Assembly: GCA_030762935.1 (NCBI GenBank)
Contig: CM060880.1
Coordinates: 11,132,501-11,196,500, forward strand
Length of the DNA: 64,000 bases
DNA from: Hymenopus coronatus
Taxonomy: Eukaryota; Arthropoda; Insecta; Mantodea; Hymenopodidae
Reading direction: 5' to 3'
Shown here: positions 22,860 through 60,820 of the stretch, one piece after another
How the letters are laid out: each line of letters opens with the position of its first letter
Numbering within the stretch: position 1 is the stretch's first letter
Notes under the pieces: model-generated
Databases searched by the model: none
Told to the model about the DNA's origin: nothing
Seen by the model: the letters and a program-made list of their open reading frames with translations, nothing else
Made by a program: the position numbers and the translations under genes

Positions 22860-23640
22860 AACACTAAGTACATTAATTCCGAAGTGAGTAAACTTCTTCT
22901 TGTATCACAGTTTATTCTAAGCAGATGCACTTTGATAATAAATTGTTTGTTTTCTTAGTAAAAAGCGATATTCAGGTTTTTCCGCGGAGAAAGTGCGAGT
23001 GCCAACGTTAATACTGTGCGTGTGTCACCGTCACGTATGTGACAGAGGTGAATCGATTAAGTGCTTGCCCGATTTTTACGTTTACAGTACAAACAGGAGC
23101 ACGGAGCTGGAAAACATTAATTACAGACGATTAAGGAGGCACTTTCCATTCCTTCACAACGTTCAATTAAGCGAGGGATTCATATCTGTGTTACCCTGTC
23201 CAACAATCCAAACTTTCATGCCTAATTGTGAACCAATGTACATACAACACGTACCATGCACATAGTAATGTATTGCATTGCACCCAAAAATTCGATATCG
23301 AGATTTCACCGGAAATTCATATTTTCAGAACCCCTGAATTCAAAAGAAAGCAATTTTAGAAAAATATCCTTGTGTGTTCATGTAGGGGGCATTCAGCCAG
23401 AGGTAACTACTGCAATATTACATTCCTCAGGTCACCAACAACCTAAAGTACTCTTTGTTGTTAGATGCTAACGACATTTTGTACCAACCTTGCCGAAATC
23501 TTCATAGTTTAATTGTAGTAATGCAATGACGACATAGCAGAATTCAGTGTATTTGACAGTTCTTTCAATGGCGTTTGTTAAAAACCCGGTAACTACAAAA
23601 TTGGTTTTTTGTGCTACGCTAGTAGTGATATAAAAGAAAC
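22860..23640. other. Gr-II to Gr-III intergenic region
   Basis: Contains a minus-orientation hairpin-element scrap at about 23265-23380 and a minus-strand open frame 23468-23653 whose 5' end overlaps the adjoining minisatellite. That frame has one hydrophobic stretch (FCYVVIALLQL) and ends near a possible donor AAG|GTTGGT, but I do not recognise it. Confidence 0.35.
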
Positions 23641-24755
23641 AATCCTCTATCATTTGGTGAAGTCCTGATATCCCAGAAACTATCCTCTATCATTTGGTGA
23701 AGTCCTGATATCCCAGAAACTATCGTCTATCATTTGGTGAGGCCCTGGTATCTCAGAAACAATCCTCTATCATTTGGTGAGGCCCTGGTATCTCAGAAAC
23801 AATCCTCTATCATTTGGTGAGGCCCTGGTATCTCAGAAACAATCCTCTATCATTTGGTGAGGCCCTGATATCTCAGAAACTATCCTCTATCATTTGGTGA
23901 AGTCCTGATATCCCAGAAACTATCCTCTATCATTTGGTGAGGCCCTGGTATCTCAGAAACAATCCTCTATCATTTGGTGAGGCCCTGGTATCTCAGAAAC
24001 AATCCTCTATCATTTGATGAGGCCCTGGTATCTCAGAAACTATCCTCTATCATTTGGTGAGGCCCTGATATCCCAGAAACAATCCTCTATCATTTGGTGA
24101 AGTCCTGATATCTCAGAAACAATCCTCTATCATTTGGTGAAGTCCTGATATCCCAGAAACTATCCTCTATCATTTGGTGAAGCCCTGATATCTCAGAAAC
24201 AATCCTCTATCATTTGGTGAAGTCCTGATATCTCAGAAACAATCCTCTATCATTTGGTGAAGTCCTGATATCTCATAAACAATCCTCTATCATTTGGTGA
24301 AGTCCTGATATCCCAGAAACTATCCTCTATCATTTGGTGAAGTCCTGATATCTCAGAAACAACCTCTATCATTTGGTGAAGTCCTGATATCTCAGAAACA
24401 ATCCTCTATCATTTGGTGAAGTCCTGATATCCCAGAAACTATCCTCTATCATTTGGTGAAGTCCTGATATCTCAGAAACAATCCTCTATCAATTGAAAAG
24501 GCCCTGATATCTCAGAAACAATCCTCTATCATTTGGTGAAGTCCTGATATCCCAGAAACTATCCTCTATCATTTGGTGAAGTCCTGATATCTCAGAAACA
24601 ATCCTCTATCAATTGAAAAGGCCCTGATATCTCAGAAACAATTTTCTGTCATTTGCTGAAGCCATGATATCTCAGAAATAGTCCGCTATCATTTGCTGAA
24701 GTCCTGATATCTCCTAAACAATGTTCTATCATTTGGTAAAGCCGAGGTATCTCCA
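23640..24755. repeat. 40-bp minisatellite, about 28 units
   Basis: The tandem unit is 40 bp: TATCCTCTATCATTTGGTGA followed by AGTCCTGATATCCCAGAAAC. Units alternate between variants AGTCCTGATA/GGCCCTGGTA and TCCCAG/TCTCAG. One 39-bp unit near 24361 shifts the register, and the last four units (after about 24640) are degraded. There are no unique spacers. Confidence 0.97.
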
Positions 24756-28500: not shown

Positions 28501-31500
28501 ACCCGACATTTCTTATTTAAATGTGCCAAACAAATGACATTCTGAATGAGAAAGGTTCATGAAGCGTTTATTATATTTTGCTATATTTGTCTGCTCATCT
28601 TGGAGGATTTGTAGAACAAATATTGATTATTGACTAAATTCATTAAAATATTTCATAGAATTGTATTTACATTCCATTGTGCTAAGAAACTAAAATTTAT
28701 ATTTGGTTTTTCTATCATTCCCAATGCCATTTTTTCTTTGTAGCCTATGCAAAATAATTGCAAGTGGTTTTAAACCGTTTTCTTCAGAAACTTGATATTG
28801 ATGTATTTCCCGGAAAAGGGGTTTTTCTTTGCCATCGTGCTGCTGACGGCTACATAGGGTTTTAACGAAAGAAACGAATATAGGCTATCCAGCCTATTAT
28901 CACCTCAAGGCCACAGGTCTGCAACACGCATTACGTTTAGTTTCTCCTAAAGTCTTTTTTCTAACAGGGATAAGAAAATTTCACCATCAAGCCAACCCTT
29001 GTGTAGTCTATTCACATCTCTACCTCCAAATTGGTTGACACTACACTATCTTCTTGAGTAATCATTAAACGCAATCTGTCAGTGTGCTATTTCCATTTTA
29101 TATGTGCATAGTGTATCCCTTCTTAAATGAAAATACAGTGACAGTCTTATACTTTAATTTATTTTTATCAAACCATTCTATTACGTGTCCCATAAACCTT
29201 AACTCGGCTGATACACTACATTCTGTTTATTTATTTCTGTATTTATCTCAGTTTTTATAACTCTCTGTTGCAGAACTTTCTCTCTTTTTATCTCTCCCTC
29301 CCCTCAGGCATAATCTTCGTTTAAAAGTAATGGAGTCATACTCTTTGCTTGACGTTATGCTTAAACTATATACTCCTATTCAATTTGGTTTAATATATAA
29401 ATATTTTGAGCTTATCGTGTTTCCTGGACAACCACTTCACTGTCAGCGTATAATAAGAAGCTTACGGGTTTATTTTAATCCCAAATTGTATTAAAATTTC
29501 CGTTTACTAAGAAGAGCTTTAATATATTATTTAAACAACTAAGTCAAACGCTACAGCCTAATTGTTTAGTGTCCTTGTGCCTTGTAAGTGATATTGGTAT
29601 CTTAGCCTTGAAGGAGAGCTCGGTTGATTCACTAGCAGACGATGAACATTATCCTCATGAAACTCAACTTGAAGGAATGCTTGTTTGGCTGAGAAGCAAA
29701 CGTGCAACTCACCTGGGCGAAGGCTTGGTTTGCTGGTCGTAGATGATAAATATGATCATCATTATCATAAAACTCACCTTGATTGACAGCTTAGTTGGGA
29801 GTCGAAGATAATGACCATCATCTTTATAAAAATTGTCTTCAAGGAGCACTTGGATTGCTCTCGCAGACGACGAAGTTAAAACACCCACGAAACTCACCTT
29901 GAAGGAGGTTGGGTTGGCTGAGTCGCAAATGAGAAACTGTTTGAAACTCACCTTAATGACGGTTTGGTTGGCAGAGTTAAAGATGATTTAATCTTCTTGG
30001 TTGGCAGTGGTGTTGCCATAATTTTCATAAAACTCAATTTGAAAGAAGTTTGGTTTACTGAGTTACAGATGATCATTTAATCTTCTTGAAACTCATCTTG
30101 AAAGGGACTTGGTTGGCAGTGGTGTTGCCATAATTTTCATAAAACTCAATTTGAAAGAAGTTTGGTTTACTGAGTTACAGATGATTATTTAATATTCTTG
30201 AAACTCATCTTGAAGGAGGTTTGGTCGGCTGAAACGCAATGATGTTGGCATAATTTTCATGAAACTCACTTTGAAGGAAGTTTGGTTTACTGAGTTACAG
30301 ATGATGAAGATTATGTTGCTATCATCTTCGCGTAACTCGCCTTGAAGGAGGTTGTTACCAAGGTCGCGGGTTCAAATCCCGTGGAGGGTGATGGATTTTT
30401 TCGGGCGTGAAAATCCTCAGCATGGCTTCCTTCGGAAGGAAAATAAAGCTGTAGTGTTAGATTTACGGCACATAAAAGAATTTTAAGCCTGATAAAAAAG
30501 CCTCTGAGCAAAATTAAGCGGCCTTGCACGCCCAATATAGAATGGGACGTTAAGAACCGCAGCAGTTAAACAGCGTCCATAAATAAAACTCAATTTTAAT
30601 TTTTGAAGGAGGCCCTTCAGTCTGGGTAGCTCAATTGGTTAGATGCTGGCCTTATCTCAAGGTCGGGGATTCTAACCCAGCCCAGACACAAGGTTTTAAA
30701 TGTGATTAAAAGCGATAGCCCCTTACCAGTTGATTTAGTGGAAAGTAAAAGAAAGCCTACGAGGTAAAATTCTTGCACACCGGCGGCGTTGATGTGGTTC
30801 TAGCAATTGATAACTACATTAACGAAGAAAATAAATTCTTGAAGGAGGCTTAGTTGTTTAAGTCACAAATCACGAACACCATCTTCATTAAACTCACCTT
30901 GGAGTACGCAGGATGTGTTGCTATCGTTTTCATAAAACTCACCTTGAATGTAGCTCGGCTGGCTGAATCGCATATGATGAAGATGACATACACCATGAAG
31001 CAACACTCCACGGCCAAGAACAACAGGTCGATACGAGCTCCATGGGACAGGTTACTCAGGGCGTGGTACACGAACAGAGTCAGCGTCAGGAATATGTAGA
31101 GGAGGTAGAAGCCGTAGGTATAGCACAAAACTCTGCCTGTCTGACTGGCAAGTCTACTCAGCTGGAGCCAGAGGGCACTGTATCTCCGAACGGTGGCTCG
31201 ACTCTTGTGGACCTCCTGGATATGATTATAAAGAGTTTTACTGCGCGAACTTTGGAGTAATGGAGCGTTAAGGCTGGTTCATAATACATTGGGAACGAGA
31301 ATGAGAACAAGGATATACAGTGATAATTTTAATTGTTTTTTCACAGAAACCGTGTGTAGGACAGGAGTTGGACAGGTAGAGTCCATAACAGTTGGCCATA
31401 CTATGAATCCTGGGACTTAAAGTACTTGCAACATTGTAAGTTGTCATCTCAAAATAATTTGAGATCACCTTGTGGTTTACCGGGAAACTTGCGAGTCAGT

Positions 31501-44483: not shown

Positions 44484-44594
44484 TCATGTTCCAACGGCTG
44501 TATGTGAGACGTTTGTCAAGCTGCCGTTTTCTGGTATAGATGACAATTTGAACTGTAGAAGGACGACTAGGTAGGTTACGAGGTTTGAAACAAG
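44484..44594 (-). CDS. Gr-I exon 7 (C-terminus)
   Basis: Acceptor CTTCTCTGTTTCAG, then LVSNLVTYLVVLLQFKLSSI and a 16-residue tail to TGA at 44484-44486. A minus-strand AATAAA lies at 44269-44274, about 210 bp downstream. Confidence 0.88.
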   Translation of the reverse strand, partial: LVSNLVTYLVVLLQFKLSSIPENGSLTNVSHTAVGT

Positions 44595-47500
44595 CTGAAA
44601 CAGAGAAGGGCATGTTTTAATTTTCCTATAAAACAGTTTTAATCCATTTTAAGTTATTCCTGGTATTATTGTTTGAAGACAGGTTTTAAACTAATGCTTT
44701 TTGTTTTTTAAATTAAACAATGTGTATTAACTTTATTAATATATAACATTATGCAATAAGTACTAATACGCTATGAATGATGTTTAAACATTTTGTTTGA
44801 AATATTGGTTACTTTAGGAACGACTTGGTCAGAAAATATACTAGGTCCGCAGCTGCCCCATATTTGACGTTTGCAGATGTCCCTTTGTGTGTCAAAAGAG
44901 TTGCGAAACTCAACGGGTCTATTGCATGTTAAAACCCATAAGTAAGAAACTGCCTTAAAATGGAGTTTTCTATCTATGAACGCTCTTTAGCTACTGCGGT
45001 TCTCCACGTCCCATTTTATATTGGGCCTGAAAGACAGCTTAATTTTTCTCAGAGGCCTCTTTATCAGGCATGAGGTTCTTTAACGTGTCGCAAATTAATG
45101 AAACGGAACCAATGGCTTTATTTCTCTTCTGAATGAAGCCACCCTGGGGATTTTTACGCCCGAAAAAAACTATCAATCTCCGCCGGGTTTGAACTCGCGA
45201 CGTTGGGTATATGAAGCTAGCATGGTAATAACTACACCATGGAGGGCAACACGAACTGGCTGAGCGACCTTTGACCCCTCTTGCTTATCAGTGGAGATGC
45301 TCGCTACTTCTCCACTGGCCAGCTATATATTGAAATAGCTCCGCTGAGTTCTGCAACTTCGTTTACGCACGAAGGAATATCTGCAAACTCAAATACCGAA
45401 CAGTTGGTCCACCTGATATGAATCCGATTTTTACAAAATGTACATTTTTAACGGCTAATAAAGTGTTTTACATAGCTCAATTGAATAAATTATCGTAAAC
45501 CAATTCGATTTTTACTCTTTAATGTGATTAAATATTTTACTGGCCTAGTTTGATTAGAATTTGTAAAATATCTAATGTAACTCTGTTACAAATGTTTCGA
45601 GGAAAGAAATTTAGAGTTCATAGTAGTGTGTTACAGTACCATTTAAAAAAATCTGATGTGCTCCATTCAGATTCTTTTTTAAAGTTATTTCTCCACTAGA
45701 TCATGATTTCTTGAGTGATTCAGAAGACCTAAATATATGTGTTTCCGATGAAATCTTGATATAGAATGTTTAGGTGCAACGGAAATTATTTTAAATATTA
45801 ATAAAATGTATAATCTTAAATTAGAAGTTTGATGTGAGAAAAGACATACTGAGACTAGGAGACCCCTGTTGACTGTAACGTAGCCCCCGAGACTTATAAC
45901 TGGTGGACTCATTTCCAGTGTTTGCAAGAATGTGGATATCTGTAACAAAGAACATAAAGTGTGACATATACAGAGGCTGTCCTAGAAGTACCCGACCTGA
46001 CGTATAGATAGCTGTTGTTGTTTCAAACAATAACACTGTTATTAGTCCAACTAATATTAAAGCTGAGCTAGATTCTACTTTGGGGGAGTCTGCTCCTTCG
46101 TTTACAACAGTGAAATATTGGGTGGTAGAGTTTAAGCGCGGCCGTAAGAGCTGCCAAGACGAACATCGCAGTGGTCGCCCAAATGAGGCTACCAGTCCAA
46201 AAATTGTAAAGAAAATACACAAAATGGTATTGGATGATCGTCGACTGAAAGTGCGCGAGTTAGCAGATTATTGCAGACATTTCTAAAAGTTTTGTACATC
46301 GCATACTGACTGAGTTTAGATATCATGAAGTTGTATGCAAGGTGAGTGCCGCGTTTACTCACAATAGAACAAAAACAGCGTCATCAGGATGTTTCAGTCG
46401 AGTGTTTGGCAATGTATCGCCGCAATAAAGTGAGTTTTGCGTCGATTCATAACAATGGATGAAACCTGGGTCCATCACTTCACACCTGAGACGAAGGAAC
46501 AAACAAAACAGTGGATTGGCAGGGGAGAATCGGCTCCAAAGCAGGCGAAGACAGTTCCATCTGCAGGCAAGGTCATGGTGTCAGTTTTCTGGGACGCACG
46601 CGGGATAATTTTCATTGCTTATCTCAGAAAAGGAAAGGTAATCAATGGCGAATATTATGCGAACTTGTTACAGCGTTTGAGTGATGAAATCGAGCAAAAC
46701 GACCGCATTTAGTGAAAAAAAAAAGTTTTGTTTCATCAAGACAATGCACCAGTTCACACATCCATTATAGCCATGGCAAAATGAATGAGTTAAAGTTCGA
46801 ATTGCTTCCTCATGCACCCTATTCGCAAGATTTAGCCCCCTCTGATTATTTTCTGTTTCCAAACTTGAAGAAATGGCTTGGTGGTGGAAGATTTGCCAAC
46901 ACTGAAGAGGTGGAGTCTGTAGTTGATGGCTATTTTGCAGACCTCGATAGTTGTCACTATAAACAGGGTATCGGAGCTATTGAACATCGCTGGGAAAAGT
47001 GTATCAAGCTGAATGGAGACTATGTAGAGAAATAAAGATGTTTTTCCCCAAAAGGTTTGTGCTTTCTTTGTTAGATCGGGTACTTCTAGGACAACCCTCA
47101 TGTTTACATTTTGGTGAAGCGAAGCGTGACCTACCTCATTATGTAAGCTTCTGGTACATGCCAATGATGTTTGTGCAGTAAGTAATGCATCTCTAAAAGC
47201 CACGTGAATCTGAAACACAATCAAAATTATGCACTTAGAAAGATCCTTTAGGAAAAATCTAATGTGTCCCATTCGCATGATTTTTTCTACCTGTTCTTAC
47301 AGGGGATTGTTTTATTTAAATCATGCTAATCGAGGTAAACATTTATAGATTTTCTCTTATTACTGGCTGCTTACAAGTAGAAGGGAAATAAGGTAACACA
47401 CTAGCTAAAACGATAGTCAAATCTTTTAAAAATTGGTTGCTCTGTGAACATTAGAAGTTCGGTTTTCTTTGAGTGACCAAGAGCAAAATAAAAGATAGAC

Positions 47501-50500
47501 GAAATAAAAGATGCCTTCCCGTTGGAGAAAAGTTTAAGTAGTTTAACCCTTTGTTGCCTGTCGGTACCTATAAGTTCCGCTTGTTTTAAGCGTAAGGTTG
47601 TACTCTAGGATTAATTTTATGTTATACTAACCTTGAACCATAAAATTGCAGTGACTTTTTTAAATAAACAAAAGAGAAAACTGACATAACTACAGTAAAA
47701 TGTAACCCGATTAGCTTCCAAGCATCACACCGATTATTTTATCTGGGTTCTCCCCATCCTTTACCACAATCACTGGGATTTGAACTTGCAACATTTGGCT
47801 TTGAATGGATGGCCAGTCCATTATCTATTACTTAACACTCATGGCCATTTGAACTACTTTTTGAAACTGCCTTTGGCAGCATTATGAAAACTGATTTAGA
47901 AGAATTTAAACTTTTAATTGGGAATCAAAATATTAATAAAGAATCTACATTTATTGTCATTTCTATTTTCTCTATTATTTTATATAATCATTTTATAGGT
48001 TTATTCCCAAATGTTTTTGCTAGAACTCCAGTTTTAAACTTGAATTAAAGGAAAAACGGCATGTGTAGTTTACTAGTGCAGGCAACTAAGGGTTAAAACT
48101 GAAACCAATAACAAGGAATATCTCGGAAACGGTTAACAATTCAAAGCATGCATACCATATACATTTTGCGTTTTAACGAGATCTATATTTCTTGTGTAGT
48201 AAGTTTTTGTCTATCTCTCGCGATTTACAGTGACGCAAAATTCATTGAGAATAAAAATGCCTTTAGAGGTTATGCTCAGAAAACTCAAAATATTAATTTT
48301 ATATTAGTGAACATCTTTAATATATGTATTTTAATCAAATCATTAGAGCCATTTTGAGAAAAACAAAGATTTCAAAAATGTTTCCGTGTAAAGACCGACA
48401 GTTTTTAAGTGAGCTTAAAAGTAACAGCCCCATGCATGTAGATTTACTGGCATGTTAAAGAATTCCTGCGGAGCACCGGCGGCGCTGATACGAACCTAGC
48501 CGTTGTTAATAAATAAAATAATTTGCTTTATTCAAAAGGATAGTTTAGAGTAGAGGGATTTTCTTGTAAATCGTGTCGCATCCTTGGAACATACTAAACC
48601 TAAATACCAATTTTGGTATTTAACAGTCTTTCCGTTTTTGAGCTATGCCATTCACAGACACAGGGACACATACTGACCTTTTTCTAAAAGTGTCTTTTTT
48701 TGTTTATGGAGCCTCAAAACATTTATTTCCGGTGAAATCTCAGTGTCGCATTTTTGAATGGAATACAATAAGGTTTTAACTTTCTCTACACGTACTATGT
48801 ACAAAGTGTATAGAGAAGGTATTGTATTGCACCCAAAAATTCGATACCGAGATTTCACCGGAAGTGCATATTTTGGGACTCCCCGAATACAAAAAAAAAC
48901 TAGAAAAATGTCCTTGTGTGTGTCTGTCTGTCTGTGGGTAGGATAGCTCAAAAACGAAAAGTCCGTTAAATACCAAACTTGATATTTAAGTTCAGTATCT
49001 TCCAAGGATACGACACGAAGATTTTTAAGAGAATCCTCCCACCCTAAACTACCCTTTACATGGAAAAAAGTTCGAACAGTTTGATTTTTTCAAAAATAGC
49101 TCTAACGGTTTTGATTAAAATCTCTTATTTTAAGATATTTACATGACAAATAAAATGTATATCTTGAATTTTTGGGGAATAGCCCCTGAGGACCTCTATT
49201 CTGGATGGTTTTTATTGAATTTTGCATAACTGTTAAGCCGTAAGAGATACACAAAATTTATTTCACAAAAAATGTAGATCACGATAAAACACAATTTATG
49301 ATATATACATTTTTTTGTGGATTTGGCCGTTTTCGAGATATTGATTTGAGTTTTAAAATGCTGACCTGACGTTGCACGTGGCTGGCTGCATCACACACCA
49401 GGAACAGGTGCACGGAGATGCTGAAGATCAGCACAGCAAGATAGAATACGCTGGTGAACTCTAACAGCGTGGACTGCAGTTGGAACAGCCTGGCCAGCAG
49501 ATCATAGGTGGCCACGGTCAGCAGCAGAAACAGGTGAAGAATGAAATAGCCGGCCGTGTAACAGAAGGCGTTGCCCAGCTCTTGAGTCAGGGTACTCAGC
49601 TCCAACCATATGCCTCTGTATCGGGACACCGTCTCGGCCTCCTGCAAAGATTACGGTACACAATCAGGGAAAGCATTTATGGGCTAGGTCGTAATGTTTT
49701 CTTCTTCGTTCGCCACCAGATACGGTGATCCGCAGAGCCCGGATAAAACCCACCACAAATTCTACATGCGGTTCCCTGGAATGGAATCCATCGACCTTAC
49801 GATTATCTGATATTCATCTTTTCAGGATAAGGGAAACCCCCTTATCAAGTAACTCACCCTGACCGAGATTCAAACTCGGGACCTCTTGAATGCGAGGTAG
49901 ACACGCTGCAACACGCCACACAGACGGGCAATAGGAGCTGTTTATTTGCGCATCGTTCATCAAACAGTCGCTTCACAAACATTTGGCCTCCTCGTTTTGC
50001 TGAGGTTCCCATGACCTCCAGTTTCAAGTGATGCAGGAATTTTTAGATAATGTATATGTTATTGCATCTGAAAATACTCACAAGAGAAGTGTTTCTGAAT
50101 GCAGCCAGCAGACTGCGCCCCGACCTGGCAAGTGCTAAGCACACCAAATACCACAGCAAAACTGGACACGATTTCACCAGAACCTGGTACATCGAAAGGA
50201 AGTCACCCACGAGAGTTGACATTGTGAACTGTCTCCTGTTCACGCATGCGTAGAACACTTGCAGTAGCAAGGGAACTGCTACAAGACTCGCGCTGAACCA
50301 AGTTGCTTGTCGCCTCAGATCCAGACTTAGAGTTGACCCAACAACCCTCCGATACAGAACCTGTTAACAAAAGACAGTGACATTTCAAATTAAACGTATA
50401 CTTATATCGTAATTATTAGTTTATTACCTTATCATGTATGTGCAATGTAGATAGTGTGTGCGTGAGTGTGATGCCGGATGGGATACCACGCTGCAACCAT

Positions 50501-50900: not shown

Positions 50901-53900
50901 TATTGGAGGGGATTCCACACCGCAGCTATTTGCTTATTGTGCGTCAGACCCCAGGAGGATAGGATGAGTAATTTCAAACGGCGGCTGAAACCGGACAGCG
51001 GAGATGAACCACCTTGGAGGGTCCCTAACATTTCCAAGCCGTTCATCACGACGCGGGGAGCGCTAGAAGCCCGCACCACAGGTCGGACCCAAACTCTCTG
51101 AGTCTGCAGATGACTTCCACCGCCATCCCGCTGCCGAGAGAGGTATTTCCAGAGCGTAGTCACCTCCACGAAAGGGTGCAATCACCGCAGACCTCGCCGA
51201 CAGTTACAGCCGTTAAAGAGACCGGGTGGGTGAAATGCAGATGAAATTAATGAAGTTCGGGGGAATGAAGATACTTCCTCGGGATTTGCCCAGTGACTCG
51301 GGAAAACCCCCGAAAAACCCATGGGTCAGAGTGATCCGTCGCCCATGAAAAACTGCTTTGACTATGTTACGGACGCTCCATAGTGGCTCTTTACTCGTGG
51401 GCTGGCTTCGGCCGCCCATAGATAATACTCTCATTTTATCCTATCTTCCTAGGGTGTGATGCACAAGAAGCCCATGGTGGCTGCAGAGTAGAGCCCCCTC
51501 CGGAATAATACACACACACCTACTCGTCACAATAATCCCCTTTAGAGGTTGTATTTCATAACATGTTTGTTCTTTTGAGCTTCTCTGGTCATATTGGTAA
51601 CATTGGAATTGGAAACAATTCTTTGGTGTAGTTGATGCTCGTTTGTTTGCCTGTGTGTATGTGAAAAACACCTGAATGTATTTCCCCGTGTTGATATATC
51701 TGTAACCCATTCACTCATATGCAGTGGTACTCCCTGACTCACCTGGAAGTGTTCCGACTTCTTGATATATGAGCAGTGTTCTAACCCATTCAGTCAAATG
51801 AAATGGTACACACTGACTCACCTGGAATTGTTCTCACTTGTTGAAATATCTGTCAATTAGCAATTACTCTAACCCGTTCACCCAAATGCCGTGGTACTCC
51901 CTCACTCGTCTGGAAGTGTACCCATTTCTTGATATATCTGACAATGACCAACTGCTCTAACCCATCCAGTCAAATGGAATGGTACTCCCTGACTTACCTG
52001 GAATTTTTCCCATTTGTTGATGTGTCTGACAATCAGCAACTGCTCTAACCATTTCACCCGGACTCATTTGGAAGTGTTCTCAATTCTTGATATATCTGGC
52101 AATGACCAACTGCCCTAACCCGTTCACCCATGCAGTGGTACTCCCTGACTCATCTGGAAGTTTTCCCACTTCTTGATATATCTGACAATGATAAACTGCC
52201 CTAACCCGTTCACCCAAATACAGTAGTACCCCCTGCCTCACCTACAAGCGTTCCCACTTGTTGATATATCTGACAATCAGCAACTATTCTAACCCATCCA
52301 GTCAAGTGAAATGGTACTCCGTGACTCACCTGGAAGTGTTCCCACTTGTTGATATATCTGACAATCAGCAACTGTTTTAAACCAACTCAGACAAATGAAA
52401 TGGTACGCACTGACTCACCTGGAAGTGCTCCCACTTCTTGATATATCTGACAATCAGCAACTGTTCTAACCAACTCAGTCAAATGAAATGGTACACACTG
52501 ACTCACCTGGAAGTGCTCCCACTTCTTGATATATCTGACAATCAGCAACTGTTCTAACCAACTCAGTCAAATGAAATGGTACTCACTGACTCACCTGGAA
52601 GTGTTCCCACTTGTTGATATATCTGACAATGGCACAGATCTCCCGCCATTGTACCAGAGGCAGTAGAGTGATGGGCAGCACTCTCAAGGTATGGAACGTG
52701 TGCGTCACCGAATAGTCAAAGGAATCTCCACCGTTCACGAGGTCAATGACGTCACTTCCCACTTGAAGCCATAGCAGCGCCATCACGCCCAGATATATGA
52801 GAAGCGAGTATATCATCGCTAGAGAGCGTAGGCTGAACTGAACACCGACATCTGCACAATAGTGTATGATTCGTTAATGAGGTATAAATATGAAGTTTTC
52901 AAACTCTACATTTTATATACAGAAATATCTTCTTTTGCGGTTTTTTGTTTGTTGGCTGTGTAAAAGGTGTGTCGTCTTCTGCAATTATTTTACATATTAT
53001 TGCCAATTAAAACGTTACATCTTTGACTTAAACTATTCTTAGTGGAAGGGATTTTATTTCTTATGGTAATACTTAACATATTTTTCTTTCACGTATACCT
53101 TATGTTCGGACTTTTCAATTTGTTATTTGTAATTATGATTTTATGTGGTTTAGAAAATAAATGGGTGCTTTGGTCAGCGGTGTTTCAGCAATATGCATTT
53201 TATGAAATCTTTTATTTACAGTATATGGCTGGCAACAATTAAATTGATCCACAAATTGCAGATTGTTTTTAATAGTTTCTGGAATTACCTTGAAGATACA
53301 TAAATCAAATTATGGAAATTCAGTGCATGTTTGGCTGTCTTAGCGAGGGAGTGCTGATAAGCTTAAAAGTTCCATTATCATTTTACAATAAAATTGCCAG
53401 GAAAATACTCAATTTTTGCCTACGGAATTTGTGGATTCCGAGCAAAGTGTCCCTGTAAGTTGGCACAAAGCACAAAGGAGGCTCTTGTACCTACTGAATC
53501 TTTGCCAGGAAGGAGAGTTGTGAAGCACACAGGAGGCGACCGGATCGGGACAGCAAAAGGGGGCCCCTAACGTCTCTGAGATCCCAAAGTCGGGGACCAG
53601 CACAGTAGCATGCTTCCCCAAGGCGAGGTCTCCTTGGGATTCTTCACGTGCCAGACTTTGGGATAATCTGTTCCTTAAAGTAAATTCCACAGCCACGGGT
53701 CTCGCCATGCCGTTCATTCGCCTGATACTCGACTCAATAACAGAAAACATGATAAGGAAATTAAATAATAGGAAATGGGGACTGGAAAATCAGCGACATA
53801 TTAGAAACGTTCCCAGCATTCGTTTTCCAACCCAGAAATACCGCTAAAAACGTTCAGGATGGCCATTCCAACGGGAATCGAACTCGGGGCCACCTGATTA

Positions 53901-56711
53901 TGAGCGTTGTATTTTACCGTGGAACTGTCTCACTCGTTGAAACCACTCTCAAAGCGCCACTCCACATGGCAGGGAATGATTCTGTTATTCCGTAGTGTCA
54001 CTTTGACTTCTTGGTCATGTCTTGACTGTTACTGTAGGTTCTGACTCATGAATGCTAATCCTAGTTGCGAAGTCGCCTTTCTGTCCGTTTATTTGTTCCT
54101 ATTTCTTTTGTTATGTGGGTGGATTAGAATTATCGCGGATGGAGCCTGTCACCGGGCAGAGTATCGCACATGGGTAATTGTGGCCCTTTGACTTATATGA
54201 TTTCTGGGAGATAGGGATGAGAAAAGAAACCCGAAGGGTGAGTAGATCCGGATGACGACAGACACAAACAAACATAGGGTCCCTAACGCTTCCAGATCGC
54301 CCATCCACAACCCGCCGAACACCATCTTCTGGTTCTTCGACCCTGAAACAGGATGAGTAAGAAAAATATGGACAGAAGAGTTTTTATAGAAAATTAACCA
54401 ACCCAATATTCGCCTACCGACCCGAGAAAACCACGAAAATATGCATGGGACCTCCCAAAAGCAGGCCACAAACTTACCAACTGAGCCATCTCGCTAGGTT
54501 TATGTACATAGGTGGAATTTTAAGTCATGTTAATGAATATCCAATCAGGGGTTTAATGACAAGAGAGGAAGATTATGAAGAAATGTTAAATTGGCCGCCA
54601 TATTATTATTGTACCTACAACCTCCCGAATGCGACTTAGAGAAGCAAAGACCTGAAATATATAGTTATTATGTGATTTTATTGTACTTTATGTATTATAA
54701 TTAAAAATGTTGCCTACATAACTAGATTTGTTTACATTTTCATGGTTAATACATGGTACATTTTATGCTGTGTTGTTTGTAGATATATTTTAGTGCTGTA
54801 AAAATTGGTTTAAGATTATAAAATACATTCAAAACTATGATATGCGTTGAAAAGTGAAAGCGTGTCATCATTTCCAAAAGAGTTTTGAATCAATGAATGA
54901 TAACATAAATATGATAAGAAAATTTCTGAATGTAAAGAACAGCTCAGGGAAAAACCCATAAGTAGCAATTGCTATTAAGAAACAATAAGTGTTTTGAAAA
55001 TAATGCTTTTTCGTTTTGTTTCATATGTGTAGCCCCCTCCCCTTTAACTCCCATGGTTATATAGACTGACTCTTAGTTGTTACTCGTTGAACTGCAGGTT
55101 ATCTTAACGATTGTGTTTGTTTGTTTGTTTGTTTTTTACTTTCTCTACCAAGTTCTAAGCACACATATTAGGAAGAGAAGGTATTGTATTCCACCAAAAA
55201 TTCGTTACTGAGATTTCACCGAATATACATGTTTTAGGGCCCCTGAATTAAAAAAAAACATTTTAACTAAAAGATATGTGGGTAGCATAACTCAAAAAGA
55301 AAAATTCCGTTAGATACCAAAGATGTAACACAAAGACTTTCAGAAAAATCTCCCACCTATAATTGTCCTTCACATGGAACACTTTTTATTTTTTTTTTTT
55401 TTATTTTCTCAAGAAATGGTTTTAACGATCTCGTTTACAATACCATATGTTTAAGATGTTTTTATGACAAACGAAACTTATATTATCTAGAATTTCCTGG
55501 GAATAGACTCTGAAGATATCTTCATTATGGATTATTTTTATAACTGACTATTTCGTTCATGGCACGTGATCGTAAGAAGTGGCCAACCGAGTACATTAAA
55601 TTGTAATCAATCGGAACTCATTATCTCTGAATTTTAATCTTTTGTTTTTATCACACCCACGTGCAATTGTTTTTCTAAATGTATCGCACCCACGTGTCTT
55701 TGGTTTCTCTCTGAACTAATGTTCGTCTCATAATAATAGTATCAGTGTGCAGTGATATTCCCGTACATAATGACGGAAGTTCCAAAACGTTTTGGGGAAA
55801 AGTCTGTCGCTGAAATGGCCATATTAATTGAAAACTCAAAGACGCAGAATACTAAAAACAACAGAGAGAGTGTGCGGAATCAGTTCAACGGATTTTGTAA
55901 GCAACGAGGCCATGATTGATGATATGGACATCAAGTTGCAGTGATTTCAGTGATTTTAGAAATATTATTCTTCGTGTCTATATTGGCTAATCATTGTTAT
56001 TTTATTCACGAAATAGTCTTATTAAATACAACTCGAGCTACAACTTTTCTCGCAACAAGTTGCTCGAGAATTTATCGATATAAGTTGGAGCTCTGTAAGA
56101 GATAGGAAAAAACTTACTACACAAAAAATGTAGATCTCATTACAGTTTGTCATGCAGGAACTTTCTTTTAAGAGTTAACCATTTCTGAAATATCCCCTGT
56201 TATTGGTTTCAGTTTTAAAACACCTGAAATTTTCTCGAACGGGAAATCGGCATTCATTTCATATATCTTTTGTTTTACTCCTCGCCATGCAAAGAGAACA
56301 GAGTTTAATGTCAATCGCATAGCGGCAGGTTTTAAAAGATTTGACTGTCGTATTATTCTATTGTATTCTTTTATTTCCTTACTATTTACAAGGAAAGCAT
56401 GTATTTCTGGTGAAATCTCGGTATGAAATTGTTGGGTGCAATACAATACCTTCTCTATACAATATGTACATAGTACGTGTAAAGAAAGTAAAAAAATTGT
56501 TTTTAATTAACTGTAAGTGAAACCTTTATGAAAATGGATGGACTATTAGTTACGTACCTCCAGCAAGGAACTGTATGGGCAAGGCTCCGATCAGCTTCAT
56601 CTCACAAAGGACAGGCCTCAGGTTCTCGACCAAGACGTTCCGAGGACGGACATGGGCACCCGCAACAAACACCATCTTGTGACCTTCACGTCTCCACTTG
56701 CACATCTTCAT
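44484..56711 (-). CDS. Gr-I: gustatory receptor, CO2-receptor-like, 7 coding exons found
   Basis: Seven minus-strand exons join in frame: 56558-56711, 52595-52851, 50082-50360, 49366-49641, 47135-47209, 45850-45939 and 44484-44594. From ATG 56711 they give 413 codons. Landmarks are ENLRPVLCEMKLIGALPIQF (exon 1), WREICAIVRYINKWEHFQ (exon 2), GIWLELSTLTQELGNAFC (exon 4), SPPVISLGGYVTVNRGLL (exon 6) and TYLVVLLQF (exon 7). The paralogues have a further N-terminal exon joined in phase 1; none was found upstream, though exon 1 does contain a phase-1-compatible AG (ACAG|TG before ATG). A mariner, a piggyBac-like MITE and a donor-derived minisatellite sit in its introns. No internal stop was found. 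Confidence 0.78.
44985..45250 (-). repeat. SINE family A, inverted copy
   Basis: The reverse complement gives a TGGTGTAGTTATTACCATGC head and CGAGTTCAAACCCGG, with the same body as 18945-19240 (GGCGTAAAAATCC, GAGGCCTCTGA). Lies in the last Gr-I intron. Confidence 0.75.
45255..45640. other. Gr-I intron, no feature seen
   Basis: No repeat or coding signal recognised; a small plus-orientation hairpin-element scrap follows at about 45648-45800 (TCTGATGTGCTCCATTCAGA). Confidence 0.4.
45850..45939 (-). CDS. Gr-I exon 6 (30-codon exon)
   Basis: Acceptor TTCTTTGTTACAG, 90 bp encoding ISTFLQTLEM then SPPVISLGGYVTVNRGLLVS, donor TCA|GTATGT. Confidence 0.87.
45971..47106 (+). mobile_element. mariner element inside a short Gr-I intron
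   Basis: The ends share GTCCTAGAAGTACCCGA in inverted orientation (45979-45995 and 47075-47091). Fragments of mariner transposase lie between on the plus strand, antisense to the receptor. About 30 bp separates each end from a Gr-I exon. Exact outer ends are uncertain by a few bases. Confidence 0.85.
46059..47035 (+). pseudogene. mariner transposase, broken
   Basis: The first 40 or so residues are deleted; it starts at ELDSTLGESAPSF. FTTVKYWVVEFKRGR is the second helix-turn-helix region. A frameshift near 46284 and one near 46430 separate the parts. ITMDETWVHHFTPET has the first catalytic acid, a frame-broken LFHQDNAPVHTS near 46730-46765 the second, and AHYSQDLAPSDYFLFPNLKK-like sequence the third. 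It ends NGDYVEK before TAA at 47035. Confidence 0.88.
47135..47209 (-). CDS. Gr-I exon 5 (25-codon mini-exon)
   Basis: Acceptor TTGTGTTTCAG, 75 bp encoding IHVAFRDALLTAQTSLACTR and SLHNE, donor GAG|GTAGGT. Confidence 0.78.
47257..48410 (+). repeat. Hairpin-ended element split by a piggyBac-like insertion
   Basis: Left half 47257-47546 (starts TCTAATGTGTCCCATTCGCA), right half 48093-48410; the halves rejoin at TTTAA/AACTGAAACC as in uninterrupted copies. The hairpin end is missing. Confidence 0.75.
47547..48092. mobile_element. Non-autonomous piggyBac-like element (MITE)
   Basis: A 546-bp insert begins CCCTTTGTTGCCTG and ends CAGGCAACTAAGGG, an imperfect inverted repeat, flanked on both sides by TTAA. 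TTAA targets and CCC/GGG ends are typical of piggyBac. It carries no transposase. The host sequence is the hairpin-ended element, so the insertion is later. Confidence 0.8.
48410..48520 (+). repeat. SINE family B, 3' part
   Basis: Matches 30612-30835 in TAACAGCCCCATGCATG and GCACCGGCGGCGCTGATACG. The tRNA-like head is missing. Confidence 0.6.
48535..48772 (+). repeat. Hairpin-ended element, 3' part
   Basis: Runs from AGGATAGTTTAGAG to AATACAATAAGG; the hairpin is shared with or replaced by the next, inverted copy. Confidence 0.65.
48779..49360 (-). repeat. Hairpin-ended element truncated at the Gr-I exon 4 donor
   Basis: Starts ACTTTCTCTACACGTACTAT with the hairpin and runs to GATTTGAGTTTTAAAATG, where it stops a few bases before the splice donor of exon 4. 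It forms an inverted pair with the preceding copy. Confidence 0.75.
49366..49641 (-). CDS. Gr-I exon 4 (helices 5-6)
   Basis: Acceptor GTAATCTTTGCAG, 92 codons ending VHLFLVCDAASHVQRQ, donor CAG|GTCAGC. The intron becomes hairpin-element sequence within a few bases of this donor. Confidence 0.85.
49715..49945 (-). repeat. SINE-derived fragments (families D and C)
   Basis: 49715-49790 has the CCCGGATAAAACCCACCACA body of family D; 49790-49945 has GAGATTCAAACTCGGGACCT (B box) and GCGAGGTAGACACGCTGC, an inverted family C head. Confidence 0.55.
50082..50360 (-). CDS. Gr-I exon 3
   Basis: Acceptor CTTTTGTTAACAG, 93 codons beginning VLYRRVVGSTLSLDLRRQ and ending AAFRNTSL, donor CTT|GTGAGT. Two hydrophobic segments. 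Confidence 0.87.
50600..50836 (-). repeat. SINE family D
   Basis: On the minus strand the head is ATGACCGAGTGGTTAGACCA; the body has GGCGCAGGGGTGGGTTTTCT and ends near TAGTAAAAGCGGGGTTAAAC. Confidence 0.7.
50838..50899. repeat. (GT)n microsatellite
   Basis: About 30 perfect GT units at the head end of the SINE D copy. Confidence 0.97.
51030..51660. other. Gr-I intron 2, GC-richer unassigned repeat
   Basis: Sequence with GACTCGGGAAAACCCCCGAA and GTTACGGACGCTCCATAGTG resembles a moderately repeated SINE body or older transposon. No coding region is supported. Confidence 0.35.
51664..52594. repeat. About 88-bp minisatellite built from exon end plus splice donor (Gr-I exon 2)
   Basis: About 11 units lie immediately downstream of Gr-I exon 2. 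On the minus strand each reads as the last 12 codons of the exon (IVRYINKWEHFQ) followed by GTGAGTCAG and about 40 bp of intron. Plus-strand marks ACTCACCTGG occur at 51737, 51816, 52324, 52413, 52501 and at the real donor 52589, with ACTTACCTGG at 51992; variants at 51904, 52062, 52148 and 52236 have lost part of the site. Spacing is mostly 88 bp. Units nearest the exon are most alike. Confidence 0.92.
52595..52851 (-). CDS. Gr-I exon 2 (helices 1-2)
   Basis: Acceptor CTATTGTGCAG, two bases, 85 codons (VGVQFSLRSLAMIYSLLIYL...), donor CAG|GTGAGT. The end of this exon is the founder of the 88-bp minisatellite that follows. Confidence 0.88.
52870..53400. other. Gr-I intron 1, proximal part
   Basis: AT-rich and no recognised repeat. 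A plus-strand 66-codon hydrophobic frame at 53042-53242 looks like chance AT-rich coding. Confidence 0.4.
53405..53960. repeat. Unclassified GC-richer repeat with SINE-like end
   Basis: An open minus-strand frame (53750-53409) has no known motif. 53775-53960 reads, on the minus strand, like a tRNA-derived head (GGGAATCGAACTCGGGGCC in plus orientation is a B box complement). Inverted GATCCCAAAGTC and GACTTTGGGAT lie at 53579 and 53652. Confidence 0.4.
54245..54510 (-). repeat. SINE-like element, family H
   Basis: On the minus strand the head is CTAGCGAGATGGCTCAGTTG, an A-box-like start; the body contains ATATTGGGTTGGTTAATTTT and GGTTTTCTCGGGTCGGTAGG. The 5' end of gene-like sequence was not seen. 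Confidence 0.45.
54515..55130. other. Gr-I intron 1, no feature seen
   Basis: AT-rich, nothing recognised. Confidence 0.4.
55138..56394 (-). repeat. Hairpin-ended element with a 550-bp insertion
   Basis: Starts ACTTTCTCTACCAAGTTCTA with a diverged hairpin. Element sequence is interrupted at about 55545 and resumes near 56095 (GTAAGAGATAGG). It breaks off at TATTTACAAGG (56394). Confidence 0.7.
55545..56095 (+). pseudogene. Possible Crypton/KIAA1958-like recombinase N-terminal scrap within an insertion
   Basis: Within the insertion a 49-codon frame from ATG 55770 reads MTEVPKRFGEKSVAEMAILI, later NTKNNRESVRNQFNGFCKQR, then a stop. The NTKxxxxxxVxxFxxFCxxRG pattern resembles the N-terminal domain of Crypton-type tyrosine recombinase derivatives. 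No recombinase domain follows. The call is tentative. Confidence 0.3.
56395..56490 (+). repeat. Hairpin end of an inverted element copy
   Basis: AAGCATGTATTTCTGGTGAA through GTGTAAAGAAAGT, i.e. only the hairpin end, fused directly to the broken end of the preceding copy. Confidence 0.7.
56558..56711 (-). CDS. Gr-I first exon found
   Basis: ATG at 56711 (MKMCKWRREG) to donor G|GTACGT; ends GALPIQFLAG plus one base, phase 1 like the paralogues. The frame is open upstream to 56753, so an acceptor rather than the ATG may define its start. Confidence 0.65.
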
Positions 56712-59080: not shown

Positions 59081-59445
59081 GTTTTGTGGCATAGCCATTT
59101 CCAAGATATCCGTGTTTATAATAGTGCTAGTCGATCACGGTGTGAATACGTTGAGTGGTAAGACGAACTAAGCAGTTAGGGTGGAGCATTGGAAGTGCAG
59201 TGAGGTAAAGAAACATACGCAGAGGTGCTGCTTCGAGAAAACTAATGCGAAGACAGCAGCAGTTTAATGGCGTTTTCTCGTGCAACTGTACCTTCCCATT
59301 AAAAGGAGATTCGAAATTATTGTTGTCGCTAAGTTGGTACAACTTTCCTCTATACCCACGCGGAGTTTGATCGTCATCTGTCATCTAGTTTGTTTACAGT
59401 ACGCAATTTTGTTAGTTCATCTCAAAGGTGATTTTAGATTTTACG

Positions 59446-60345
59446 ATGGATACAAATATTGAAGAAATCTGTCTCAAATTTTGCATTGCAAATGGTATTT
59501 CGTGTGCCGAATGGCTGAAAATGCTACAGAGGGCTTACGGTGAATCAACTTTATCAAAAACACGTGCATATGAGTGGTACAGTGCATTCAAAAGTGATCG
59601 AGATGTAGTGGAAGATTTACCTCGCTCTGGTCGGCCATCAATGGTTTCAACATCGCTAAAGTGAAGAAAATTGTGTCTGAAAATCATCATTTAGGTCTAA
59701 GAGAGATTGCCACTGAACTTTCTGTGTCTCAAGAATCGATTCGTACCATTTTAAACGATTGTTTGGGCATGACACGCGTAGCAGCTCGGTTAGTTCCGAA
59801 AGACTTGACTTTTCTACAAAAACTCAATCGCGTAAGGATTGCTGAAGACATGCTAGAATGAGCCAGTTCCGACCCCACATTCATGAAACGCATTGTAACT
59901 GGTGATGAGACGTGGGTTTACGAGTTTGACACTCAAACCGGTCAACAAGCTTCCGAATGGCGCCCTCCAACTGAACCGAAACCTAAAAGGGCACGTCAAA
60001 CTCGATCAAAACTGAAGGTCATGTTGACAGCTTTTTTCGATTATCGCGGTGTTGTGCACTCAGAGTTCTTGCCAGAAGGTCAGATGGTAAATAAAGACTA
60101 TTATCTAAACGTTATGCGGCGTTTGAGAGAACAAATACGGCGAAAAAGGCCAGATTTGTGGAATGACAACTCATGGATTCTGCACCACGATAACGCACCA
60201 GCTCACAAGGCTATTATTGAGAATGAATTTCTGGCCAAAAACTCAACAAATTTCATCGAACAACCACCGTATTCACCTGGTCTGGCTCCTGCTAATTTCT
60301 TTCTCTTTCCAAAACTCAAGTTACCACTTCGAGGCACCCGTTTTC
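59446..60345 (+). pseudogene. mariner transposase, broken, C-terminus deleted
   Basis: ATG at 59446 (MDTNIEEICLKFCIANGISC). A frameshift near 59650 and a TGA near 59859 interrupt it. GDETWVYEFDTQT holds the first catalytic acid and LHHDNAPAHK the second; the third is changed (PYSPGLAPANFFLFPKLK, with N where D is normal). The protein then jumps at TRFQ straight into an inverted-repeat-like end (GATACTTCTGGGACAGCCCT at 60351-60370), losing the last 60 or so residues. I could not find a matching left terminal repeat. Confidence 0.88.
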
Positions 60346-60384
60346 AGTTGGATACTTCTGGGACAGCCCTCGTATTGTGTCATT

Positions 60385-60820
60385 CTACACAAAAACAGTA
60401 TAACTTATATCTTATACATTGAAAGCTGAGGTGGGACGAGAGAGTGAACTGTTGCATAGCCATTATTTTCACGCGCTATAAGAGCGGTGTGTGTCATATT
60501 TTTGTTACACTCTGTACACCAGTCACCATGCTGGTCAGCAGTTCTACAACTTATGCTGTGACATATATCATGTAGTGCAGAAATAAGCGTGAGTTGTTTC
60601 AAGTTTATGTAGGTAATTAAACAGCACTTGACACTTCATCGCTGGCGAGTATCTAGGTCATGACCAGTACTCCCTTACACGGGCTCTTATTGCTTGTGGT
60701 CAATTGCAATAAACAGGAAAATGTTTAATATACGACAGTATCTCTCTTTATTAACATTTCAGAACATTGTATTTCCAATTCCGCATAGTGCTTTTGACTC
60801 TAAAGGATACTCATATATGC
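60385..60820. other. No feature seen
   Basis: Unique-looking sequence without a supported gene. Confidence 0.35.

Follow-up and report, generated by a model that had tools for sequence, protein, structure and literature searches.

A minisatellite spanning a predicted exon-intron boundary in a putative gustatory receptor gene of Hymenopus coronatus

Boundary ("mirage") minisatellites have been described in the lancelet genes for Adh3, the globins BflGb6 and BflGb9, and troponin C, and similar repeats occur in PGBD5 (PMC3087553, PMC3902484). Their units range from 10 to 160 bp (PMC3087553), and the Adh3 data and globin reverse transcription-PCR in these accounts suggest that regular splicing is undisturbed (PMC3087553, PMC3902484). 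Here we analyze a window of 64,000 nt from Hymenopus coronatus (GCA_030762935.1, CM060880.1:11,132,501-11,196,500), in which a tandem array adjoins exon 2 of a predicted gustatory receptor (Gr) gene, Gr-I. Judged from its sequence, the Gr-I array has the structure that defines a mirage: its unit spans a predicted exon-intron boundary, the typical length of 88 bp lies within the range of 10 to 160 bp, and many, though not all, copies keep AG/GT. The lancelet BflGb6 array is on the acceptor side and BflGb9 has a duplicated donor-side boundary, whereas both arrays reported here, the one in Gr-I and a second one in gene F, are on the donor side and sit in neighboring insect-type Gr genes. In addition, length instability and normal splicing are reported in lancelets, whereas the Gr-I array is known here from a single assembly.

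The nearest functional analogue is the minisatellite of human IFI6, whose unit is reportedly about 12 bp long and in frame; the Gr-I unit differs in being 88 bp long and out of frame, with a stop three codons into the read-through. In IFI6, according to PMC4526556, which cites work from 1995, minisatellite units act as donors, and the use of two downstream units results in three mRNAs. Introns may also be gained or changed by tandem duplication of proto-splice sites, including in Drosophila (PMC2891723, PMC2812944). The resemblance to Gr-I is that duplicated splice motifs inside a gene alter the intron structure; the difference is that no new intron is predicted in Gr-I, where the old intron merely grows. 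We found no insect boundary minisatellites in the open-license literature, which is weak evidence of absence, and the portions of an account of insect sugar receptors drawn on here describe a novel exon and intron gains without boundary repeats (PMC2667405). Within the scope of those searches, Gr-I is the first mirage-type case in an insect. The phenomenon is real and of a known kind; what it contributes is the large number of equal donors, a second array in the adjacent gene, and predictions that are clear.

On the minus strand, predicted exon 2 of Gr-I passes into intron 2 as ...ATTGTCAGATATATCAACAAGTGGGAACACTTCCAG/GTGAGTCAGTGAGTACC... (a slash marks the splice junction), the exon ending at 52595 and the intron starting at 52594. 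The full array unit consists of the final 12 codons of exon 2 (36 nt, IVRYINKWEHFQ), GTGAGT, and 46 further intron bases. Most units are 88 bp long, with a range of 70 to 89 bp over all copies in the unit alignment, which covers U0 to U10. We searched both strands of the window with a 45-base boundary probe (the last 37 bases of exon 2 and the first 8 of intron 2) and found ten copies matching at 35 to 44 of the 45 positions and one relic matching at 30, versus 26 for the next best site. The original prediction, made from the letters alone, had described units of roughly 88 bp that carry the exon end, the donor, and intron sequence. The probe matches and the unit alignment bear this out, and the 35 to 44 matches, compared with 26 elsewhere, contradict an identity between unit and exon end of only chance level. 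Tandem Repeats Finder reported periods of 88 and 176, among others, and a search that skipped very common words located the array once in the 3.13-Gb assembly. Units differ from one another at 3 to 30% of aligned sites. Scanning intron 2 for inverted repeats of at least 14 nt that could hide donors yielded three pairs, none inside the array. The donor and the copies are as follows.

52587..52597, minus strand: real exon 2 donor, CAG/GTGAGTCA, first intron base 52594; its aligned position is common to paralogues B and F, and a similar exon end and donor occur in L012
52595-52630, minus strand: exonic half of U0, the last 36 nt of exon 2
52455..52542, minus strand: copy U1, 88 bp, CAG/GTGAGT, first intron base 52506
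52366..52454, minus strand: copy U2, 89 bp, CAG/GTGAGT, first intron base 52418
52278..52365, minus strand: copy U3, CAG/GTGAGT, first intron base 52329
52190..52277, minus strand: copy U4, weaker donor TAG/GTGAGG, first intron base 52241
52104..52189, minus strand: copy U5, donor lost (AT)
52034..52103, minus strand: copy U6, 70 bp, internally deleted, donor lost (AT)
51946..52033, minus strand: copy U7, CAG/GTAAGT, first intron base 51997
51858..51945, minus strand: copy U8, donor lost (AC)
51779..51857, minus strand: copy U9, CAG/GTGAGT, first intron base 51821
51708..51778, minus strand: copy U10, 5' end diverged, CAG/GTGAGT, first intron base 51742
51664..51707, minus strand: relic U11, 30 of 45 probe matches, GTGTTT at the donor

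The window contains 16 matches to MAGGTRAGT against 2.12 expected, a count reached by none of 100 shuffles, and seven of them are the real exon 2 donor and six array copies. The six extra donors placed by the original prediction coincide exactly with the starts of such matches. Its count of seven near-identical donors also stands, although it overlooked an additional, weaker eighth one, TAG/GTGAGG at 52241. Among copies U1 to U10, GT is retained in seven and gone in three, and the full CAG/GTRAGT is present in six. The computed energy of pairing with U1 small nuclear RNA (snRNA) was -12.2 or -12.1 kcal/mol for the seven donors and -10.0 for U4. The four sites without such a donor (U5, U6, U8, and U11) gave -2.6 to -6.7, and the remaining three donors of Gr-I gave -6.9 to -8.1. 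Read-through past the real donor adds V-S-Q and then meets TGA, the early stop that had been foreseen, so that use of any later donor would lead to a 128-residue product. This TGA is the fourth codon past the donor (52583-52585, minus strand) and is found only in U0 among U0 to U10, the ten copies having TGT, TGC, or GGN. If later donors were used, exon 2 would measure 345, 433, 522, 610, 854, 1,030, or 1,109 nt, versus 257 nt.

We favor, as probable, the explanation that this is a boundary minisatellite, in which the exon 2 end with its donor and 46 bases of the intron recurs in ten copies and a further relic, and that the copies are predicted to be silent, the exon-side donor being the one that splicing would use. 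Such an array could have arisen by tandem duplication across the exon-intron boundary and expanded by unequal exchange or slippage. Since every duplication would leave an intact exon with its donor on the exon side, all extra copies would be intronic, and cost-free, while the first donor wins. Exon definition would favor the exon-side donor of exon 2, given the long introns on both sides (3,706 and 2,234 nt) and the lengthening of the exon to 345 to 1,109 nt by later donors. Messages from later donors would stop after three codons and would probably undergo nonsense-mediated decay; the expected outcome would be silence with rare leakage into decayed messages. In the results of Carranza et al. 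drawn on here, strength-matched donors combined with long flanking introns favored the upstream donor (PMC9225289). The earlier statement that the cell must choose among the donors is true in principle, but the choice may be no contest, since five human exon-defined minigenes with identical CAG/guaagu donors used the upstream one exclusively (PMC9225289). The seven near-identical donors of Gr-I, of which only the first would give a full protein, would constitute a natural test of donor choice, including that of the human cross-exon proximity rule with many rivals.

Gr-I belongs to a cluster of three five-exon Gr genes, B, F, and I, on the minus strand between 7.2 and 56.7 kb of the window, with gene F running from 41280. 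All three are open models with common intron positions. Their modeled intron phases are 1, 0, 0, 0, the phase of the first intron of gene B having been assigned so as to agree in frame with Gr-I and gene F. The predicted exons of Gr-I are as follows.

56558..56675, minus strand: exon 1, 118 nt, ending in phase 1 with donor GAG/GTACGT; from a match to paralogous first exons, open model
52595..52851, minus strand: exon 2, 257 nt; open model and splice sites
50082..50360, minus strand: exon 3, phase 0; open model and splice sites
49366..49641, minus strand: exon 4, phase 0; open model and splice sites
44484..44594, minus strand: exon 5 including the stop, with the VTYLVVLLQF tail; open model

The five-exon model comprises 346 stop-free codons and scores 34.9 bits against Pfam 7tm_7 (cut-off, 26.6). 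Exons 2 to 4 alone, joined at provisional junctions, scored 17.9 bits, under the cut-off, and had no protein homologues at an E value of 0.001 in a word-limited search. VTYLVVLLQF is encoded early in exon 5, which follows a phase 0 intron; a TY..V.L.QF-like C-terminal motif on the last exon, behind an intron of that phase, is a trait of insect gustatory receptors. In this genome, most of the 111 scored 7tm_7 matches, in a best-first list that favors intronless genes, span about the whole profile in one frame. The genome also holds 7tm_6 receptors, and the two families together point to an insect. Exon 2 measures 254 nt in genes B and F and 257 nt in Gr-I and ends at the same aligned position, which supports the earlier claim that the array has grown into the intron only. 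A paralogous exon at C1:2494463 ends in ...WTRFQ/GTGAGT (a CAG/GTGAGT donor), similar to the end of Gr-I exon 2. No copies were found at the corresponding donors of gene B, gene F, and the C1:2494463 exon. As the exon end is present in paralogues that lack copies, it is the ancestral part, and the repeats spread from there into the intron.

Adjacent units are most alike on the exon side, with identities of 97% (U0-U1), 97% (U1-U2), and 86%, and among the farther adjacent pairs, five of seven show 73 to 76% and the other two 84 and 86%. Mirages are described as homogenized on the inside, with the array edges left out; in Gr-I, the far edge is degenerate (U10 and U11), but the units at the exon edge, at 97%, rank with the most similar. 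Of the 88 positions of U0 and U1, 3 differ, two of them exonic and one intronic. The high similarity on the exon side suggests that the latest duplications probably occurred there and that the turnover probably involves the exon end itself. Two intron types alternate in part (U3/U4, U7/U8, and U9/U10), which would explain the 176-bp period. We also considered selection preserving the donors, for which a permutation test on U0 to U9 gave no support (P = 0.58 for more variable and P = 0.43 for less variable). Variability at the donor positions resembles that of the remaining unit, which would be expected in the absence of selection on them.

Several points weigh against silent copies. In U0 to U9, minority cells amount to 7.2% in the exonic part versus 14.6% in the intronic part (P = 0.012, treating columns as independent and ignoring the relatedness of units), and exonic variation peaks at third codon positions (14.2% versus 4.2 and 3.3%). 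This pattern fits repeated reseeding from a constrained exon but could also point to the copies being used. Read most simply, it means that U0, under protein selection, keeps joining in duplication, in which case the copies would inherit coding-like differences. The splicing rule, furthermore, comes from human data, in which the downstream donor was favored in about 60% of events unmatched for strength, and also with short introns, in the results drawn on here (PMC9225289). Six or seven simultaneous rival donors exceed the two-donor minigenes tested, and the exons and donor choice of Gr-I are themselves predictions.

If the copies were used, the extra donors might serve as an unproductive-splicing rheostat: they would be chosen often, the copy number would set the share of productive mRNA, and the rest would end at the TGA and decay. 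The near-equal U1 snRNA pairing of seven donors (-12.1 to -12.2 kcal/mol, with U4 at -10.0) and the restriction of the fourth-codon TGA to U0 speak for this, but the donor columns are no better conserved than the rest of the unit, 3 of 10 copies have lost GT, and exon definition together with the long extended exons disfavors later donors in human data. We therefore regard it as unlikely. The third-position excess and the three differences between U0 and U1 would also suit a reservoir, in which unequal exchange places copies at U0 and supplies alternative versions of the final 12 codons, such as one with K instead of N at codon 6, along with a spare donor; since the exon part contains stops in three copies (U4, U6, and U9), we judge this to be quite unlikely.

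It is very improbable that the copies are small cassette exons with the in-unit TTGTCAG as acceptor. In several units, CTGATTGTCAG does bridge the unit junction, with a donor 28 nt further on; however, as read from the sequence, there is no pyrimidine tract, only a few bases separate any branch-like CTGAT from the AG, and an insert of 28 nt would disrupt the frame. An assembly or chance artefact, or an anonymous satellite abutting the exon by accident, can hardly be credited: no supporting point was found, and the 3 to 30% divergence between units, the register of the exonic half with an exon end that is ancestral according to the paralogous exons, and the finding of the array just once in the genome search all argue against it.

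The second array is a more eroded one at the exon 4 donor of gene F, located as follows.

30943-31215, minus strand: gene F exon 4, donor between 30943 and 30942
29600..30942, minus strand: eroded boundary array at the exon 4 donor, with other sequence between about 30837 and 30340

It consists of eroded copies of the last 36 bases of exon 4, the donor, and about 25 intron bases, reaching to about 29600, and its part from 29600 to 30340 was found once in the genome. Exon 4 is flanked by introns of 3,944 and 5,407 nt, so that it too lies in a setting for exon definition. A 1.6-kb scan of this boundary gave ten matches over the working threshold, nine of which lay above 15.0, the highest of 40 null scores, and a 1.4-kb scan gave seven boundary-spanning copies with scores of at least 14. 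Unit statistics used 14 of 16 anchors, leaving out 30593 and 30340. All 13 copies exceeded 500 letter shuffles over the full columns, a test that overstates the match because the anchors were picked by a donor-like pattern. With the donor columns excluded, 10 of the 13 still beat all 500 shuffles, the exceptions being 29777, 29712, and 29606. The extra donors comprise five AAG or CAG/GTGAGT and one AAA/GTGAGT. The first of them lies 45 nt downstream, in frame, and would add 15 residues (VSFMKTIATHPAYSK), and reading on meets a stop after 30 codons. This donor shows how a boundary array could yield a new in-frame isoform.

Across the three Gr genes of the window, two of the 12 predicted donors and none of the 12 acceptors carry boundary copies; we claim no significance for the former count, as one of the two arrays was the reason for choosing the window. 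We then sampled 30 odorant-receptor, 30 P450, and 6 other Gr loci, which provided 26, 11, and 5 candidate donors, respectively, and added one in the L014 paralogue, where a second place had no candidate. Boundary-spanning copies were found at none of these 43 candidate donors, which are motif-and-frame guesses, many odorant-receptor matches lying near the C terminus and perhaps having no donor. The same scan settings detected nine copies at Gr-I exon 2 and seven at gene F exon 4. When 70 loci were scanned more loosely, L029, L031, L043, L057, and L072 gave a single match each, and an array appeared only at L010, the Gr-I locus. The possibility that boundary arrays are a common trait of this genome was rejected on the count of 0 in 43 unverified candidate donors. 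The two independent boundary arrays in neighboring genes suggest that seeding of repeats by exon ends is not confined to lancelets. The bolder proposal that Gr donors recurrently seed minisatellites, so that copy number would act as a heritable, fast-mutating expression dial (each equal rival donor killing the message) while exon exchange rewrites a receptor loop, seems to us distinctly improbable.

Other repeats and elements were also noted. Near the paralogous Gr gene at C1:2.49 Mb, L014:6115-7700 holds a 93-bp tandem array (17 copies, 96% matches) whose unit, by eye, resembles window sequence near 30510. Between genes B and F, a 40-bp tandem array of 27.7 copies (91% matches) occupies 23635-24741 and overlaps no predicted exon. 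Two open frames on the plus strand, 46008-47035 and 59416-60422, look by eye like mariner-type transposases.
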